Virus record (IMG/VR): IMGVR_UViG_3300050821_010293
Coordinates: 1-27,595 of that record
Source: a virus
Direction: 5' to 3' (one strand)
Length of the DNA stretch: 27,595 bases
Shown in pieces: positions 10,231-24,414 of this stretch (position 1 is the stretch's first letter; each line of letters opens with the position of its first letter). A model generated the notes under the pieces. It made no database searches and was not told the DNA's origin. It worked only from the letters and a program-made list of their open reading frames with translations. Made by a program: the position numbers and the translations under genes.

Positions 10231-10623
10231 ATGCACGTTACCGAAAAAGTTGTCGACGAAAACGGCGTACACATCCTCACCTCGCAGATCGAGGCCGATG
10301 GGCCGTTCGCCATTTGCTCGAAGGACGCGATGCTCACCGCCTCGGTCATTTCGCTCAAGCGGACCGATTCCGGCGGGGTGAAATTGCAAGTGGCGTTGAC
10401 CGTTCAAGAGCCAACACCACCAGCACCTGTCGTGGCCGAACCCGCAACCCCACTACCGACGGCGGAAGAAGAAGCCCTCGCGTACCTGGTGAGCGATAAA
10501 GGCCTCAAAAAGAAAGAAGCGCAGGCAGCGGTTGAGCGTTTCGGGGCGCAGAAAGTTCTCGCCAAGCGCGAAGAAGAGCGCAACGCGGAACTTGAAGCAC
10601 TGCTCGCGCCGGAAAAGAAGTAA
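10231..10623 (+). CDS. Small protein after capsid gene, possible head-decoration or linker
   Basis: A 130-residue protein. I chose ATG 10231 because AGGAGA lies eight bases upstream; a longer frame from ATG 10156 lacks a good site. Residues 1-60 look like beta strands (GVHILTSQIEADGPFAICSK), followed by a Pro/Ala-rich linker (about 60-85), then a charged helical end (LVSDKGLKKKEAQAAVERFG). This resembles a small beta domain joined to a helix that pairs with another virion protein. The neighbour is the capsid protein, so a decoration or stabilising role is plausible. I do not recognise the family. Confidence 0.65.
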   Translation: MHVTEKVVDENGVHILTSQIEADGPFAICSKDAMLTASVISLKRTDSGGVKLQVALTVQEPTPPAPVVAEPATPLPTAEEEALAYLVSDKGLKKKEAQAAVERFGAQKVLAKREEERNAELEALLAPEKK

Positions 10624-10632
10624 GATCGCGGC

Positions 10633-10926
10633 ATGAACCGTCGCGGTTTCTTAAGAAGCATCGGACTCGGCATCGGCGGGATCGCTCTCGAACAGGCGAT
10701 TCCGCTTGGCCGGGTCTGGTCGTTTCCGAAGAAGATCGTGCTCCCTCAATACCAATACATGGAGTTGCTCCATGTGCCGTTGAATCGCTGGGAAGACTTT
10801 GGGGCTATGCTGCTGCCAAACGACAAGGTTCGGTTGTATGGTGGAGCACGCGGGGGAGGCAAAGTAGCCGTGATCAAGTCGGTTGACCACGCACGGCGCC
10901 TCATCACGCTCGACTATCCCGCATGA
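10633..10926 (+). CDS. Small protein with twin-arginine (Tat) leader and capsid-like beta domain
   Basis: A 97-residue protein beginning MNRRGFLRSIGLGIGG. RRGFLR fits the Tat consensus RRxFLK, followed by a mild hydrophobic stretch to about residue 22. After a linker comes a small beta domain, residues 62-97 (DKVRLYGGARGGGKVAVIKS then VDHARRLITLDYP). Its last strands match the pattern of the capsid protein's inserted domain (ATVIAVDPLLKTITLN). GGARGGGK looks like a Walker A loop but lacks the Ser/Thr after Lys and any Walker B. The stop overlaps the next start as ATGA. Tat leaders export folded proteins, so this is unexpected in a head gene set. A weak ribosome site and short length leave some doubt about the exact start. 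Confidence 0.7.
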   Translation: MNRRGFLRSIGLGIGGIALEQAIPLGRVWSFPKKIVLPQYQYMELLHVPLNRWEDFGAMLLPNDKVRLYGGARGGGKVAVIKSVDHARRLITLDYPA

Positions 10927-11642
10927 AGCAGAACTCCCAAGAAGCCGTCATCACCCAAGAGTGCCCCCCGCACGTCGCGCGGGAGCTCACAGTCGCTGGC
11001 GGAACCAACCGTTACGGCGAACCCATGTTCCGCGTCATCTGGGGCTACAACCGCATTGTTCCGATGACCGGAGAGTGGCAGCAGTTCGAGCACCTGCAGG
11101 CGACACTCACCGACAAGCTCACCGGGCACACCGAAACGCGCACCTTTATTCGCCTGAAAGAATCGAAGATCGAAACTCGACAAGAGCCGAAGTATCTGCC
11201 TGCCAACTGCTGGCACCTCGAGAAGTGGTGCCCGCCCGAAGATTACGGATCGCCCGAGCTGTGGCGCAAGCAGGGCGAGGAAGTGATCGCCGGGTTGACC
11301 ATCGACACCGCCGGAGAGTTCCCCACGCGCGGCGAGTACGAGTTGGTGATGCCGCTCACAACCGATGGCACCTCTTGCGGGCAACCCATTCCACTCGTGG
11401 CCGATGCGGTCGCAGAACTCGTCCGCATGATCATCGTGGGTCGCGATCGCCATTCTTACGCCCAGCGCAAAGCGGCCATCGAGCAACGCCTGCGCCGCGA
11501 AGAAGAAGGCTTCTCGCGTAAGGCCATCGACATCATGAAGGACGGCATGCGGCCCTTCTGCTCGGAAGATTTTGTCACCGTGCCGAATTTGAAGACCGTG
11601 GCCGCGCTCGACCCGACGGCGAAGAAACTCACATCCCACTAA
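10923..11642 (+). CDS. Hypothetical virion protein
   Basis: A 239-residue protein starting with an ATGA overlap on the preceding gene. The middle has alternating strands and turns (NRYGEPMFRVIWGYNRIVPM), followed by a WHLEKWCPPEDYGSPELW segment and a helical C-terminal third with RKAAIEQRLRREEEGF. The N-terminal part reads like a compact mixed fold; three Cys are present (residues about 14, 97 and 107) with no clear metal pattern. It is unlike an enzyme I know. Probable minor head or connector protein by position. Confidence 0.65.
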   Translation: MKQNSQEAVITQECPPHVARELTVAGGTNRYGEPMFRVIWGYNRIVPMTGEWQQFEHLQATLTDKLTGHTETRTFIRLKESKIETRQEPKYLPANCWHLEKWCPPEDYGSPELWRKQGEEVIAGLTIDTAGEFPTRGEYELVMPLTTDGTSCGQPIPLVADAVAELVRMIIVGRDRHSYAQRKAAIEQRLRREEEGFSRKAIDIMKDGMRPFCSEDFVTVPNLKTVAALDPTAKKLTSH

Positions 11643-19108: not shown

Positions 19109-20698
19109 ATGGCATTCGATTATCCAGCGGTCGATTCGGACTACTACACCGACGACGACAAAGACAAGTACGGCGGCTTAGGTTACGCTCCGGTCACGCC
19201 CGCGCCGGATATGAGCGCAGCTACTGCCGCTCCTCCTTCTACAGTGGCGGCTTCCGCTTACCCGGCAGTGCGATCTACGGCCGTCGCTTCACCCGACGAT
19301 TTAGAAAGCCGCGCCGCTCGGCCAAAGACAGCCATTCAGGACGAGAACGCGCCGCCGGTCACTCCGCGTCCGCAATGGAAAGACTACGCCCCTGCCGAAC
19401 CGCACGGCTGGGCGAAGTTCGGGCACGTCATGGCCGCACTGAATCCCGCGACCAATGAAATCTTCAATGCCGATCCGGAACGGCGCGCCGAAGAGAAGTA
19501 CAAAAACGCGGTGGGAGAATACGAAGCCCCGGCAAAGCAAGCGCACGAGGAAGCAGAAACCGAAGAACTGGGAAAGCGCGGCGAAAAAGAAGGCGCGGAA
19601 GCGGCGAAGACGAACGAAGAAGAATTCAAAGTCGTTCCCGGCATGGTCGGGCCGAACGGCCAAGTGCTGCAGGAAGGCTCAAAAGGCACTTTGCGTTGGG
19701 GGCAGGGAATCACGGGCGCTGCACCATTAAAACCGCCGACGGACACGGCCGTGCAGAACAAAGAAAACTTCCAGCACGGCATCGGCGTACTGCGCGGCGA
19801 AGGGCTGATCGGCGCGGGCGACGTGACCGACTTCAAAAAGATCGCCGCAGCGGTGAACAACTCGAAGCAACTCTCGCCGGACGAAAAGAATTCCATGGTC
19901 GGCTACATGGGAGCGAACCCCACGCCGTCGACCAACTTGCAAGTGCACGTGGAAGGCGCGGCGGCAACGAACGCAATGAAGGAAGCGGGCAAGACCTATC
20001 TCTACAATGGCGAGCTGGTGCGCGGCGACAAAGTTCCTTCAACCGCAGACGCCACGCTGATCAAAGACCCGCAGGCCTTCCAATCAGAAGCGCGAAACGC
20101 CGACATCATCACCAAATCTTTCAATCACCTGGTTAACGATGATCACCGCATCTTCGATGATCCGCGAGCGCGCACTGTGCTCGCAACCGCGCTCGATGAT
20201 CACCAGGCTCAGCAGATGGGGATCCTGGTTGCTGGCACTGGCGGAACATTGTCGCTGCCAGGCGGCTCTGGCAAAATCATCGACCAGCTTTTAGAAAATC
20301 ACGCCGTCCCCGAGAATCTGCGCCGTTCAGTGAAGGACTACATCGTGGATTATTGGGCGATGAAAGACAAACTGATGATGGTGCAGATGGAGATGCAGAA
20401 CGGAAAGATGGGCAAGGGCAATCAGGCGTACTTCCAAGCCATGGTGTCGCAGCTGCCCGGACCCGCGACATCCGACAGCACCATGGCGCGGCGCTCACTG
20501 AGCGACTTGAGCGAAACCTTGAACGGGTTGCGCGGCACCTATGGGAATCTCACCAAAGAAACGCCCGCTTCGATCACCGGGAGTGTCGGCGGCGGCGGTC
20601 ATGACTACGGGGCAACCGACAAGCCCGAAGGTAGCACCGGAAAATTAAAAGACGGAACCCGCGTGACCGTAAAAAATGGCCACATCATCGCCCAGTGA
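19109..20698 (+). CDS. Large virion protein, probable ejection (internal) protein
   Basis: A 529-residue protein. It begins MAFDYPAVDSDYYTDDDKDK, an acidic, disordered-looking start; the first 100 residues are Ala/Pro-rich. At about 115-175 is a charged helical stretch (AEEKYKNAVGEYEAP, then GEKEGAEAAKTNEEEF). Later parts look folded with a helical domain (IVDYWAMKDKLMMVQMEMQN, about 412-431). The C-terminus, after a Gly run, has TGKLKDGTRVTVKNGHIIAQ, a small strand pair. No enzyme motif. Likely enters the host with DNA or lines the tail channel. Its YPAVDS motif is shared with the protein at 20949. The start is ATG directly after a TAA. Confidence 0.6.
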   Translation: MAFDYPAVDSDYYTDDDKDKYGGLGYAPVTPAPDMSAATAAPPSTVAASAYPAVRSTAVASPDDLESRAARPKTAIQDENAPPVTPRPQWKDYAPAEPHGWAKFGHVMAALNPATNEIFNADPERRAEEKYKNAVGEYEAPAKQAHEEAETEELGKRGEKEGAEAAKTNEEEFKVVPGMVGPNGQVLQEGSKGTLRWGQGITGAAPLKPPTDTAVQNKENFQHGIGVLRGEGLIGAGDVTDFKKIAAAVNNSKQLSPDEKNSMVGYMGANPTPSTNLQVHVEGAAATNAMKEAGKTYLYNGELVRGDKVPSTADATLIKDPQAFQSEARNADIITKSFNHLVNDDHRIFDDPRARTVLATALDDHQAQQMGILVAGTGGTLSLPGGSGKIIDQLLENHAVPENLRRSVKDYIVDYWAMKDKLMMVQMEMQNGKMGKGNQAYFQAMVSQLPGPATSDSTMARRSLSDLSETLNGLRGTYGNLTKETPASITGSVGGGGHDYGATDKPEGSTGKLKDGTRVTVKNGHIIAQ

Positions 20699-20789
20699 CG
20701 GAGCGCCAGAAGCGCTTGCTTATCCACCAGCAGAGAGCGGCAAAGCCAACTGGGATCGCGAGTATTCCCGCAACGATTAGGAAATCCAT
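20685..20789 (-). CDS. Candidate small membrane protein, minus strand (second of pair)
   Basis: A 34-residue minus-strand reading frame, beginning MDFLIVAGILAIPVGFAALC, then WWISKRFWRSVTGR. It has one strong hydrophobic segment (residues 3-22), aromatic residues at its edge, and a basic C-terminus, as in small single-span membrane peptides. It starts four bases after the stop of the candidate gene at 20794-20898 on the same strand. The last 14 bases overlap the end of the large + strand gene. The alternative on the + strand (20695-20949) cannot be excluded, and the hydrophobic reading could be by chance. Confidence 0.4.
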   Translation of the reverse strand: MDFLIVAGILAIPVGFAALCWWISKRFWRSVTGR

Positions 20790-20793
20790 AGGA

Positions 20794-20898
20794 TCAGAAC
20801 CCCCGTCCCGCGAACGCATAGATGTATGCCCCAAGCGAAATGATGCCCAGAGCGATTGCCGCTGCCTCAACTGCCCGAATTGTGAGTCTCTGAATCAT
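20794..20898 (-). CDS. Candidate small membrane protein, minus strand (first of pair)
   Basis: A 34-residue minus-strand reading frame, beginning MIQRLTIRAVEAAAIALGII and ending SLGAYIYAFAGRGF. Basic residues precede a hydrophobic span (about 12-29), a normal single-span layout. It has the same length as its neighbour downstream on that strand. It lies in a gap where base composition is lower in GC (94 of 180 at 20761-20940) than the operon. A minus-strand -35/-10 pair (20906-20934) ends just before its ATG, which would give an almost leaderless transcript. It resembles a moron-like insertion. Evidence is internal only. Confidence 0.4.
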   Translation of the reverse strand: MIQRLTIRAVEAAAIALGIISLGAYIYAFAGRGF

Positions 20899-20905
20899 GT
20901 CCCCG

Positions 20906-20934
20906 ACTCTAACCCTTCACCCTATATCTGGCAA
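20906..20934 (-). promoter_or_regulatory. Putative minus-strand promoter in repeat copy 1
   Basis: On the minus strand, TTGCCA (20929-20934) and TAGAGT (20906-20911) are separated by 17 bases, close to the sigma-70 consensus (5 of 6 and 4 of 6 matches). The expected transcription start falls next to ATG 20898 of the candidate membrane mini-gene, so translation could be nearly leaderless. The -35 and most of the spacer are part of the 27-bp repeat. Confidence 0.35.
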
Positions 20935-20940
20935 GAGCTA
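20914..20940 (+). repeat. 27-bp direct repeat, copy 1
   Basis: This 27-base segment occurs again at 22036-22062 with one mismatch (T at 20923, G at 22045). Core: atatctggcaagagcta. It lies 8 bases before ATG 20949. Together the two copies flank the 20949-21956 gene. It is too long and well matched for chance. It may be a regulatory site or the trace of cassette insertion or duplication. Confidence 0.85.
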
Positions 20941-20948
20941 AGTTTCTA

Positions 20949-21956
20949 ATGCCTCCGCAAGCCGCAGCACAGCAAGAAGTCAGCTGGGACGAAAAGCCGC
21001 AGCAGCAGGGCGCCCCAGCTGCGTCGGACATTCAGTGGGATGACGAGCAAAAGCCTCTCCCGGCGCAACCTTCCTGGACGCGGCGTCTCTGGGCAGGCAT
21101 GCAGCATGGGACGGGCGATAACAGTGACACCCCGCCCTCGCATGGCACCTGGGCGCATCCGGATTTTGCGGACGATCCCATGCTCCCCGGCTCGGGCGTC
21201 TACCGCGACATCAAAGCCCACAACTACGCTGGAGCTGCGGGCCGCGTGCTCGGCCCAGCCGCCGAGCTTGCGCTGATGGTCGGGGGAGGACGCGGGCGAG
21301 TCGAAGCGCCGCCGGAGCGGATTCCGCTGTGGAAGCAGCCGTGGGTTGAGCCAGCCCCGGCCCCGCCCGCTGTTGATGTGACACCGATGACTCCGCGACC
21401 CGTTCATGCTTCGGGGACGCAAGCGCCGCCGAGTGCACCCGTTGGGCCGCGGATCCCTCTCTGGCAAAGGGCAGGAGTGGAAGCTGGCCCTCCGCCGTCA
21501 ACTGTCGACGCCACGCCTTCGGAGCCTTACCAGCCGGTGCGACCTCCGCGCGTTACCGCAACGCCCGCACCCGCGCAGGTTCCGGTTGAAGCGCCATTCC
21601 AGCGCCCCAATCTGCCCGCGCCTTACGCCACCGAAAACGCCGCCTGGCGCAGATATCCGGCGGTCGATAGCGCGCAGGATTTGGCCGAGACCAAAGACAT
21701 TCAATCGAACGTGCGCGATCAGGCCGAAGGCGAACAGCGCAACATGCTCAAGCGGGGAACTGAAGAAGGCTTCGCGCGCAACACCCGGCCTAGGACTGCG
21801 AAGGGCGAGCTGACGAAGCAGTTTCAGAGCGGAAAAGCTGGCGCAAAGGCTTCCGGCAATGATTACCCGGGAGTGGATTTAAATTCAGAAAAAGAGTTGA
21901 CCGATCTTTTGAAGCGTTCGCTCGAACTCGCGACCAAGGTGAAGCCGAGAAAATAG
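20949..21956 (+). CDS. Pro-rich virion protein, possible ejection or tail accessory
   Basis: A 335-residue protein, low in hydrophobic residues and rich in Pro and Ala. N-terminal repeats (VSWDEKP and IQWDDEQKP), a Trp/Arg patch (PSWTRRLWAGMQHG, about 41-54), and two copies of a longer unit (RIPLWKQPWVEPAP, about 123, and RIPLWQRAGVEAGP, about 168), each followed by a TVD/AVD-TP segment. The C-terminal third (from about 230) has WRRYPAVDSAQD and YPGVDL, and ends in helices (ELTDLLKRSLELATKVK). YPAVDS also starts the 19109 protein. No ribosome site is clear; the start overlaps a TAA as TAATG. Ends in TAG. Its function is unknown; it follows ejection-like genes and is flanked by the 27-bp repeat. 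Confidence 0.6.
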   Translation: MPPQAAAQQEVSWDEKPQQQGAPAASDIQWDDEQKPLPAQPSWTRRLWAGMQHGTGDNSDTPPSHGTWAHPDFADDPMLPGSGVYRDIKAHNYAGAAGRVLGPAAELALMVGGGRGRVEAPPERIPLWKQPWVEPAPAPPAVDVTPMTPRPVHASGTQAPPSAPVGPRIPLWQRAGVEAGPPPSTVDATPSEPYQPVRPPRVTATPAPAQVPVEAPFQRPNLPAPYATENAAWRRYPAVDSAQDLAETKDIQSNVRDQAEGEQRNMLKRGTEEGFARNTRPRTAKGELTKQFQSGKAGAKASGNDYPGVDLNSEKELTDLLKRSLELATKVKPRK

Positions 21957-22035: not shown

Positions 22036-22062
22036 CCTTCACCCGATATCTGGCAAGAGCTA
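22036..22062 (+). repeat. 27-bp direct repeat, copy 2
   Basis: The second copy, 26 of 27 identical to 20914-20940, in the 127-base gap before the fibre gene at 22084. On the minus strand it again gives TTGCCA (22051-22056) and, after 17 bases, TTGAAT (22028-22033), so the -35, spacer length and most of the spacer are the same while the -10 differs. This supports a minus-strand promoter reading but does not prove it. Confidence 0.85.
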
Positions 22063-22083
22063 TCTTTCCCCGGCTAAATTCTC

Positions 22084-24414
22084 ATGCGTAAATTCCTGAC
22101 TCTGGTTGTTTTGACGGCTTTCTTTGCGGCCCTGCCCGCGTCGGCGCAGAACACCCGCGTCGATGGCATCGCGCTCACCCGTAGCGGTCAACCCGCGCCC
22201 GGAGCAACCGTCGCCGTCTGTTCGCAGGTCGCTATCACCGCGGCTTCTGAATCTGGCTTCACCGTCACCATCGCCTCCACCCTAAACCCAAGTGTCGGCT
22301 CGATTGTGACCATCACCGGGATCACGCCTCTCGCCTACAACGGCACCTGGACGGTGGTTTCCAGTTCGTCAACCCAATTCACTTACGCCAACACCGTTTC
22401 CGGAATCGCGGCTGCGACCGTCTTCGGCTCTGCCACCATCACCAATCCGGGGCAGTCCTGCGCACCGCTCGCCACCCTTTGCTCGGCGCTCAACGATCTA
22501 CTATGCGGGCAGCCAAACCCAGTCCAGGCCGACGGGCTGGGGAACTACCACTTTTACATTCCGACCAGCACCGCCTACACCCTCGAAATTTACGGTTCTG
22601 GGCTGATCGCAAAATTCATCCCGGATCAGATGGCTGGCGGGGTGGACCCCTGTCTCTCGGTTGTCAATGGAGTGCTGGTCACCCCGTGCACGCTTCAGGT
22701 CTCCGTGCCCGGCGGTGAGGGCTCGCTCACCATGTCCGAGAACGGCGTCCTGGCCGCTCCCCAAACTGGCAACGCTAAATTCGGGCCGCTCAATGGACGA
22801 CCGCACTTCATCGACGGCACGCTGAACCAAGACCTTCTGGCCGCCGATTTAATCAACGCCGCACCCGGCACAACGAATGCGATCCCAGGACTCAACAGCA
22901 ACGGCGACGTGGCCATGGCGCAGTTGGTCACCAACCCAGGTGCGTGTAACGGCACGGTTGCGGTCCTGGGGAACAATACCTGCGGAACACTCTCTGCCTC
23001 GCTTCCCACTTCCAATCCGGAAGACATTCTCGCCGGTCCCACGGCTTACGGGGCTTCGCCAGCCCCAGCTACGAACAAACCTATGGACCCGCGCATGTTG
23101 CCAGCTACATTCTGCGCGGTCGATCACCAGATCATTTCTTCCGCTGTCGACGCGAACGGCCGGCCGAATTTCCTCGCCACCTCGGGCAGTACGTCGATCG
23201 CCATCAACGGCGGGACCACATCGCTCACGATGTGCATCGGCGGGAAGTACCAGGTCCTCAGCTCGAACGTCACCCCGTCGCTCACTTCGACGGCCGGAAT
23301 TTATTTCGTGTTCGCCAAGCAGGACGTGTCGAACGCGAGCCTGGTGGTGGGCGATTTCGGAGGAACGCTCAATCCCCCGTCCTACGCCTACATCGCGCCC
23401 ACCTGCCCGTCGAATGCTGGCACGCAAAATTCTTACTGGTTCGATCTTTCGTCGAACACCATGAAAGTGTGCACAGTGAACAGCGGCTCGTATGCCGCGG
23501 CCTCGCCCCCGGTGATATTTCTCGGCGTTGCTGACAACACCGGCGCGGCCATCGATCAGGTGATCGCCGAGCCTTACCGGCTCGATCCCTACCGGCGCTT
23601 CCAGATTTTCCGCGACGCCGCCGATGGTTCGTTCAGCGCGTCTTCCGGAGGGACCTCGAACAAGAGCGGCGAGTACCACTACAGCTCCTATCTGCTGACC
23701 GGCACTGCGACCCAAACGCCCTCGACCAATGCCGGCCTGATTATTTATTCGCAAAATCCCGTGATCCTGATGGGCTCAGCGATGCTGGGCGGCGCTGGGC
23801 AAGGATTTGGCGGGGCCACTGGCGGAGTCAATAACGGCCCGACCGGTGTCGTTGGCGGTTTCGGTGGGGCCGGGGGTGGCGGCGGGGGCGGCACGGGGAA
23901 AACCGGCGGCGCCGGCGGACCGCGTTCGACTTTCGCATCGATTTCGAATAATCCCGCAGGTGGAGCGGGCGGAGCAGCGGGAGCCAATAACGGCACCGCC
24001 GGATCCAGCTCAGCGTCCTCGATCGCGCAGCTCTACGGCTTTGGCCCTTTCTACGTCCCGAATTGCGCGGGCTCGCCTGGTGGAGCGGGCGGCGGCGATG
24101 GCACTAATGCCGGCGCATCCGGAGGCGGGGGCGGGGATTACATCCAGGTCGTGGCGCCCGCGCTCTTGGTGGCCGGCACAGCAGCGATCCGCGCCGATGG
24201 CGCAGCGGGAGCGAATGGTGCGGCCGGCAATGTTGGCGGAGGCGGCGGAGGTGGCGGCGGCTGCGTGCTGTTGACGGTCGGCTACGCCAACGGCGTGACC
24301 CTGGGGACAAACGTGAGCGCGAATGGCGGCGCCGCGGGAACGCACTTTGGAACCACGGTCGGGGACGGCGCGGCTGGAGGAACTGGAATCGCCAAGCTGG
24401 TGAACGTGCTGTGA
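22084..24414 (+). CDS. Tail fibre or adhesin with Sec signal peptide and glycine-rich domain
   Basis: A 776-residue protein. The leader MRKFLTLVVLTAFFAALPAS plus AQ is a clear Sec signal. Next is a carboxypeptidase-regulatory-like domain (VDGIALTRSGQPAPGATVAV), which resumes after an insert at about 49-121 with CAPLATLCSALNDLL and ADGLGNYHFYIPTS. The insert is the same kind of beta module seen twice in the hub (TITGITPLAYNGTW, TQFTY). A middle section of beta strands follows (TFCAVDHQIISSAVDANG; GGKYQVLSSNVTPS). From about 555 to the end is a Gly-rich region (AGGGGGGGTGKTGGAGG) ending in a strand-rich tail (GYANGVTLGTNVSANGG). Gly-rich folds of this type occur in phage adhesins such as T-even gp38, where polyglycine helices display receptor-binding loops. 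Likely binds the host surface. A signal peptide on a tail fibre is unusual. Confidence 0.75.
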   Translation: MRKFLTLVVLTAFFAALPASAQNTRVDGIALTRSGQPAPGATVAVCSQVAITAASESGFTVTIASTLNPSVGSIVTITGITPLAYNGTWTVVSSSSTQFTYANTVSGIAAATVFGSATITNPGQSCAPLATLCSALNDLLCGQPNPVQADGLGNYHFYIPTSTAYTLEIYGSGLIAKFIPDQMAGGVDPCLSVVNGVLVTPCTLQVSVPGGEGSLTMSENGVLAAPQTGNAKFGPLNGRPHFIDGTLNQDLLAADLINAAPGTTNAIPGLNSNGDVAMAQLVTNPGACNGTVAVLGNNTCGTLSASLPTSNPEDILAGPTAYGASPAPATNKPMDPRMLPATFCAVDHQIISSAVDANGRPNFLATSGSTSIAINGGTTSLTMCIGGKYQVLSSNVTPSLTSTAGIYFVFAKQDVSNASLVVGDFGGTLNPPSYAYIAPTCPSNAGTQNSYWFDLSSNTMKVCTVNSGSYAAASPPVIFLGVADNTGAAIDQVIAEPYRLDPYRRFQIFRDAADGSFSASSGGTSNKSGEYHYSSYLLTGTATQTPSTNAGLIIYSQNPVILMGSAMLGGAGQGFGGATGGVNNGPTGVVGGFGGAGGGGGGGTGKTGGAGGPRSTFASISNNPAGGAGGAAGANNGTAGSSSASSIAQLYGFGPFYVPNCAGSPGGAGGGDGTNAGASGGGGGDYIQVVAPALLVAGTAAIRADGAAGANGAAGNVGGGGGGGGGCVLLTVGYANGVTLGTNVSANGGAAGTHFGTTVGDGAAGGTGIAKLVNVL

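Follow-up and report, generated by a model that had tools for sequence, protein, structure and literature searches.

The gap between two late genes of an uncultivated phage is, in our moderately confident judgement, an inserted, autonomously transcribed, moron-like unit on the minus strand, predicted to yield two small membrane peptides from a near-leaderless message. The window, by which we mean the whole stretch of DNA analysed (27,595 nucleotides), is a 27.6-kb phage fragment from IMG/VR that carries a terminase large subunit gene and a major-head-protein-like gene. Its late genes form a one-way series on the plus strand, the last two being long tail-like genes, the final one truncated by the end of the window. 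The gap is flanked by an upstream late gene of 529 aa (19109–20698, plus strand), which is conserved in relatives, and by a downstream late gene of 335 aa (20949–21956, plus strand), which starts with short N-terminal repeats (SWDE/QWDDE). The N-terminus of the latter family (20949–21050 in the window; homologues for example in L055, L057, L060, L064 and L065) is a fast-evolving linear motif, a short tandem element such as SWDE/QWDDE, PDFIPA, ETLPADFFDK or WTDVE that varies among relatives and is duplicated in most of them.

A lineage-specific insert with two minus-strand frames

Relatives were gathered through the head protein, which identified 21 IMG/VR loci at 73–98% identity, and gene order was collinear across the relative records. 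In 14 relatives, namely all 13 head-protein records in which the junction could be read plus the more distant L003, the homologues of the 529-aa and 335-aa genes abut or overlap, with gaps of –41 to +9 nt; the record of the closest relative (G001) stops short of the junction. Therefore, the 250 bp at 20699–20948 represent an insertion at a gene boundary that is specific to the lineage of the window, and extra genes are placed here between genes adjacent in relatives, as is expected of a moron. The DNA of the gap had no match in the relatives, INPHARED held no match to the head protein or to the DNA of the region, no relatives were found in GTDB genomes (A1 or A4), and IMG/VR scans with a neighbouring conserved gene returned no additional records. 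The lower GC content that had been remarked upon is real (0.54 in the gap versus 0.606 in the window) and agrees with the deviating base composition of morons, which is however a weak criterion in this case, since the junction between the 335-aa gene and the following 776-aa gene is also low in GC (0.512).

The sequence-only reading had described two 34-codon minus-strand frames in series, four bases apart and each with one hydrophobic span, and this description is correct to the base. The first frame, ORF1 (20794–20898, minus strand; MIQRLTIRAVEAAAIALGIISLGAYIYAFAGRGF), has its hydrophobic span at residues 12–30, and its stop codon is separated by 4 nt from the ATG of the second, ORF2 (20685–20789, minus strand; MDFLIVAGILAIPVGFAALCWWISKRFWRSVTGR), the span of which occupies residues 3–21 and the final codons of which overlap the 3′ end of the 529-aa gene. 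The Kyte–Doolittle maxima, calculated with a 19-residue window, were 1.94 for ORF1 and 2.38 for ORF2. Two basic residues precede the span of ORF1 and one follows it, while in ORF2 none precedes the span and four follow it, in a basic C-terminus. According to the positive-inside rule, the ORF1 peptide would thus have its N-terminus inside and the ORF2 peptide its C-terminus inside, so that the two are predicted to lie antiparallel in the membrane.

Predicted promoter position and leaderless spacing in the phage group

A promoter just before the first minus-strand ATG had also been proposed, and the site was borne out: a –35-like hexamer TTGCCA (20929–20934, minus strand) and a –10-like hexamer TAGAGT (20906–20911, minus strand) are separated by a 17-nt spacer, with 7 nt between the latter and the ATG of ORF1. 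This sigma-70-like site scores 9 of 12, and taken alone it is no better than chance, considering that one such site was found where 2.3 are expected in 9.6 kb. Its position is more distinctive: of the 10,642 ATG-initiated frames of 25 codons or more in the clade, just 14 are preceded at 6–8 nt by a promoter scoring at least 9/12. It has been reported that predicted leaderless genes are common in some bacterial phyla, with a TANNNT signature about 12 bp before the start (PMC3160421), and TAGAGT begins 13 nt before the ATG, within the expected 12–13 nt. The same study predicted leaderless genes in all three Acidobacteria genomes examined (PMC3160421), any assignment of a host to this phage group being a guess.

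This spacing recurs in the phage group. We scanned 658 kb from 17 relatives for sigma-70-type sites lying ahead of ATG-initiated frames of 25 codons or more. With the window excluded, 7 of the 56 sites scoring at least 10/12 had such a start at exactly 7 nt, whereas the other distances averaged 0.55 (Poisson P about 2e-6), and shuffled sequence gave a flat profile; leaving the window out did not affect the peak. The genes behind the leaderless-spaced sites of the clade are accessory and often nuclease-like, small zinc-binding-like proteins also being represented. These include an HNH-like gene in the late operon of G008 (oriented 10587–11003, minus strand), recognised by eye with no Pfam match, and, in the late operon of G013, an Endonuclease VII-like gene (oriented 23355–23876, plus strand), both with a strong promoter 6–7 nt before the ATG, as well as an HNH_3-like gene with a sub-threshold Pfam match (G013, oriented 31330–31803, minus strand), whose promoter lies 6 nt before the start. 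At the large late genes there was no TANNNT peak at –13, indicating that leaderless starts are not general among late genes. The sharp peak at 7 nt, often before nuclease-like accessory genes, points to leaderless accessory genes as a habit of this phage group.

The strongest support for the minus-strand unit comes from one of the relatives (G005, locus L060, IMGVR_UViG_3300010396_000438), in which 494 bp separate the homologues of the 335-aa and 776-aa genes, one junction further along the same operon. This interval contains two ORFs, 44 and 55 aa long and both having hydrophobic spans (L060 2616–2750 and 2747–2914, on the plus strand of the record and opposite to the late genes), which overlap by 4 nt at stop and start, and their promoter, TTGACT-17-TAGCGT, is located exactly 7 nt before the first ATG. 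No similarity was detectable between these peptides and those of the window; what the two pairs share, judging from their sequences, is architecture rather than a demonstrated homology.

Competing readings of the insert

It might be argued that the insert is non-coding or decayed DNA in which hydrophobic frames and a promoter-like site coincide by accident, a reading that we regard as unlikely. In agreement with it, neither peptide has a homologue above chance in the relatives, INPHARED phages, Pfam, PHROGs, NCBIfam or PADLOC, so that Ka/Ks is not computable; codon usage does not separate the two frames from spurious ORFs, being uninformative for such short peptides and favouring neither strand; promoter sites of 9/12 strength are expected by chance; and both peptides are very small. 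However, when the gap was shuffled 5,000 times with its dinucleotides preserved, 0.8% of the shuffles gave one minus-strand ORF with a predicted span and none gave the tandem pair; to count, an ORF had to begin with ATG, run to 30 codons or more and contain a hydrophobic span, criteria that were set post hoc, after the pair had been seen. The leaderless spacing, which matches the clade peak, and the analogous unit of G005 also speak against coincidence. A different proposal, which seems improbable, takes the competing plus-strand frame (20695–20949), with a GTG start and a Cys/Arg-rich product of 84 aa, as the gene; the product would be a late protein whose translation is coupled to that of the genes on either side. 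This frame spans the entire gap without a stop, as the corresponding frame did in 1.8% of shuffled sequences (one or more of the six frames did so in 13%), and it overlaps the stop of the upstream gene (GTGA) and the start of the downstream one (TAATG). Moreover, ORF1 is codon-for-codon antisense to it, so that the hydrophobicity of ORF1 could mirror a hydrophilic plus-strand product. On the other hand, the Cys/Arg-rich composition is what is expected opposite the Ala-rich codons of a membrane span, the codon score of the frame falls at the 65th percentile of spurious ORFs, and there is no homologue of it in the 14 relatives or in the family libraries. Additionally, TAATG is the native junction of the 529-aa and 335-aa genes in several relatives, and the downstream overlap thus requires no plus-strand ORF. 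The sequence-only reading was to be abandoned if related phages kept the plus-strand frame and disrupted both minus-strand frames; in fact they carry neither, because the insert is absent there. The plus-strand frame is probably non-coding.

The stretch could also be mainly regulatory, with the minus-strand ORFs incidental, and here the evidence concerns a 33-bp direct repeat, of which one copy (20914–20946) lies just before the 335-aa gene and the other (22036–22068), identical at 30 of 33 positions, before the 776-aa gene. The repeat is present at both junctions and nowhere else in the window, and no match to its 21-bp core is expected in shuffled sequence. Its position before both genes would suit a plus-strand promoter, an operator or a recombination boundary, but it accounts for only 33 of the 250 bp and leaves the remainder unexplained, it was not seen in the relatives, and the plus strand offers no consistent ribosome site or sigma-70 promoter, which makes this reading very doubtful. 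An exact 17-mer of the repeat had two matches in IMG/VR, each in an unrelated context. On the minus strand, the first copy holds the –35 hexamer and most of the spacer of the predicted ORF1 promoter, and the second is accompanied by no good –10 hexamer; the repeat might have been left behind by a second promoter or unit, mark a recombination boundary or act as a plus-strand signal. We also considered that the repeat might encode a motif, PSP-x-IWQELSF, its copies differing by a synonymous AGT/TCT change, and rejected this because the second copy lacks a start codon that could serve that frame.

Proposed expression, known counterparts and biological meaning

Under the preferred reading of a minus-strand unit, a host sigma-70-type promoter would start the RNA at the ATG of ORF1, or one base before it. 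ORF1 would then be translated without a Shine–Dalgarno site, and ORF2 by ribosomes that start again 4 nt further on, reinitiation or coupling being likely at this distance, yielding two single-span inner-membrane peptides made independently of late transcription. The moron-like reading proposed at the outset is supported in part, namely in its layout, with a separate predicted promoter, a predicted near-leaderless message and insertion into a one-way late operon, as judged from the synteny of 14 relatives and the G005 unit. A terminator of its own, as morons often have, was not found, no terminator-like site following directly on ORF2; this feature is not universal, and its absence limits the claim to "moron-like".

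The unit may plausibly be expressed from a prophage. The window fragment is without an integrase; a tyrosine integrase was found in one relative (G014) and small serine recombinases in two (G002 and G003), whereas several more distant relatives (G007, G009, G010, G011 and G017) carry a family A DNA polymerase, and this split of the head-gene clade suggests mixed replication styles behind one structural module. As a separate observation, some relatives have lysis genes between the homologues of the 335-aa and 776-aa genes: an endolysin-like gene is located there on the late strand in G009 (L066) and G010 (L067), the G009 protein having a PHROG endolysin match and its gene adjoining a holin-like membrane ORF.

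As regards function, the peptides would most likely modify the membrane of the host, either in a lysogen or ahead of late expression. One candidate purpose, superinfection exclusion or protection of the host, is in our view rather unlikely, no known exclusion or defence family having been matched above chance in Pfam, PHROGs, NCBIfam or PADLOC, and lysis or toxin-like roles are less likely. A search for the T7-type RNA polymerase family also gave no match, which shows nothing, as its controls were equally silent. The small hydrophobic type I toxins Ldr, TisB and Fst, about 30 aa long, resemble the predicted peptides in spanning the membrane once with basic residues at one terminus; however, the ORFs of the window stand in tandem, and no antisense antitoxin RNA was recognised, Rfam giving no match. 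Superinfection-exclusion morons of the HK97 gp15 type are small membrane proteins from separately expressed accessory genes, as is proposed for the window, but family searches detected no sequence relation between them and the window peptides. Such morons are cited in a study of Tab of Pseudomonas phage JBD26, a single 83-aa protein that blocks virion assembly and is expressed from the prophage, on the minus strand and from its own promoter, inside the late operon (PMC10884400). The window likewise has small putative minus-strand genes in the late operon with their own predicted promoter, but it encodes two 34-aa predicted membrane peptides and the junction is different. In Cluster O mycobacteriophages, the leaderless leftward promoter PL2 of Corndog gene 53 is situated in the structural operon (PMC4351075), and it resembles the window in being directed against that operon and in having transcription predicted to begin right at the start codon, on its first base, although it serves a different gene in a mycobacteriophage, whereas the window belongs to an unrelated group of uncultivated phages and has a membrane unit of two ORFs. 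With Tab and PL2 as precedents, a backward accessory unit with its own promoter plausibly belongs to a known style of phage moron.

A wider proposal, put forward tentatively and against the odds, is that the late operon of this phage group serves as a docking platform at whose gene boundaries autonomous leaderless units, among them HNH-type nucleases and paired membrane peptides, become inserted in either orientation, and that two-peptide membrane units constitute a novel type of module for modifying the host, recurring with no similarity in sequence. Gene callers routinely overlook very short membrane genes that run antisense to a phage operon, and the group-wide spacing of 7 nt between promoter and ATG offers a practical means of locating accessory genes of this kind. 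The same spacing predicts leaderless translation in the hosts of this phage group.
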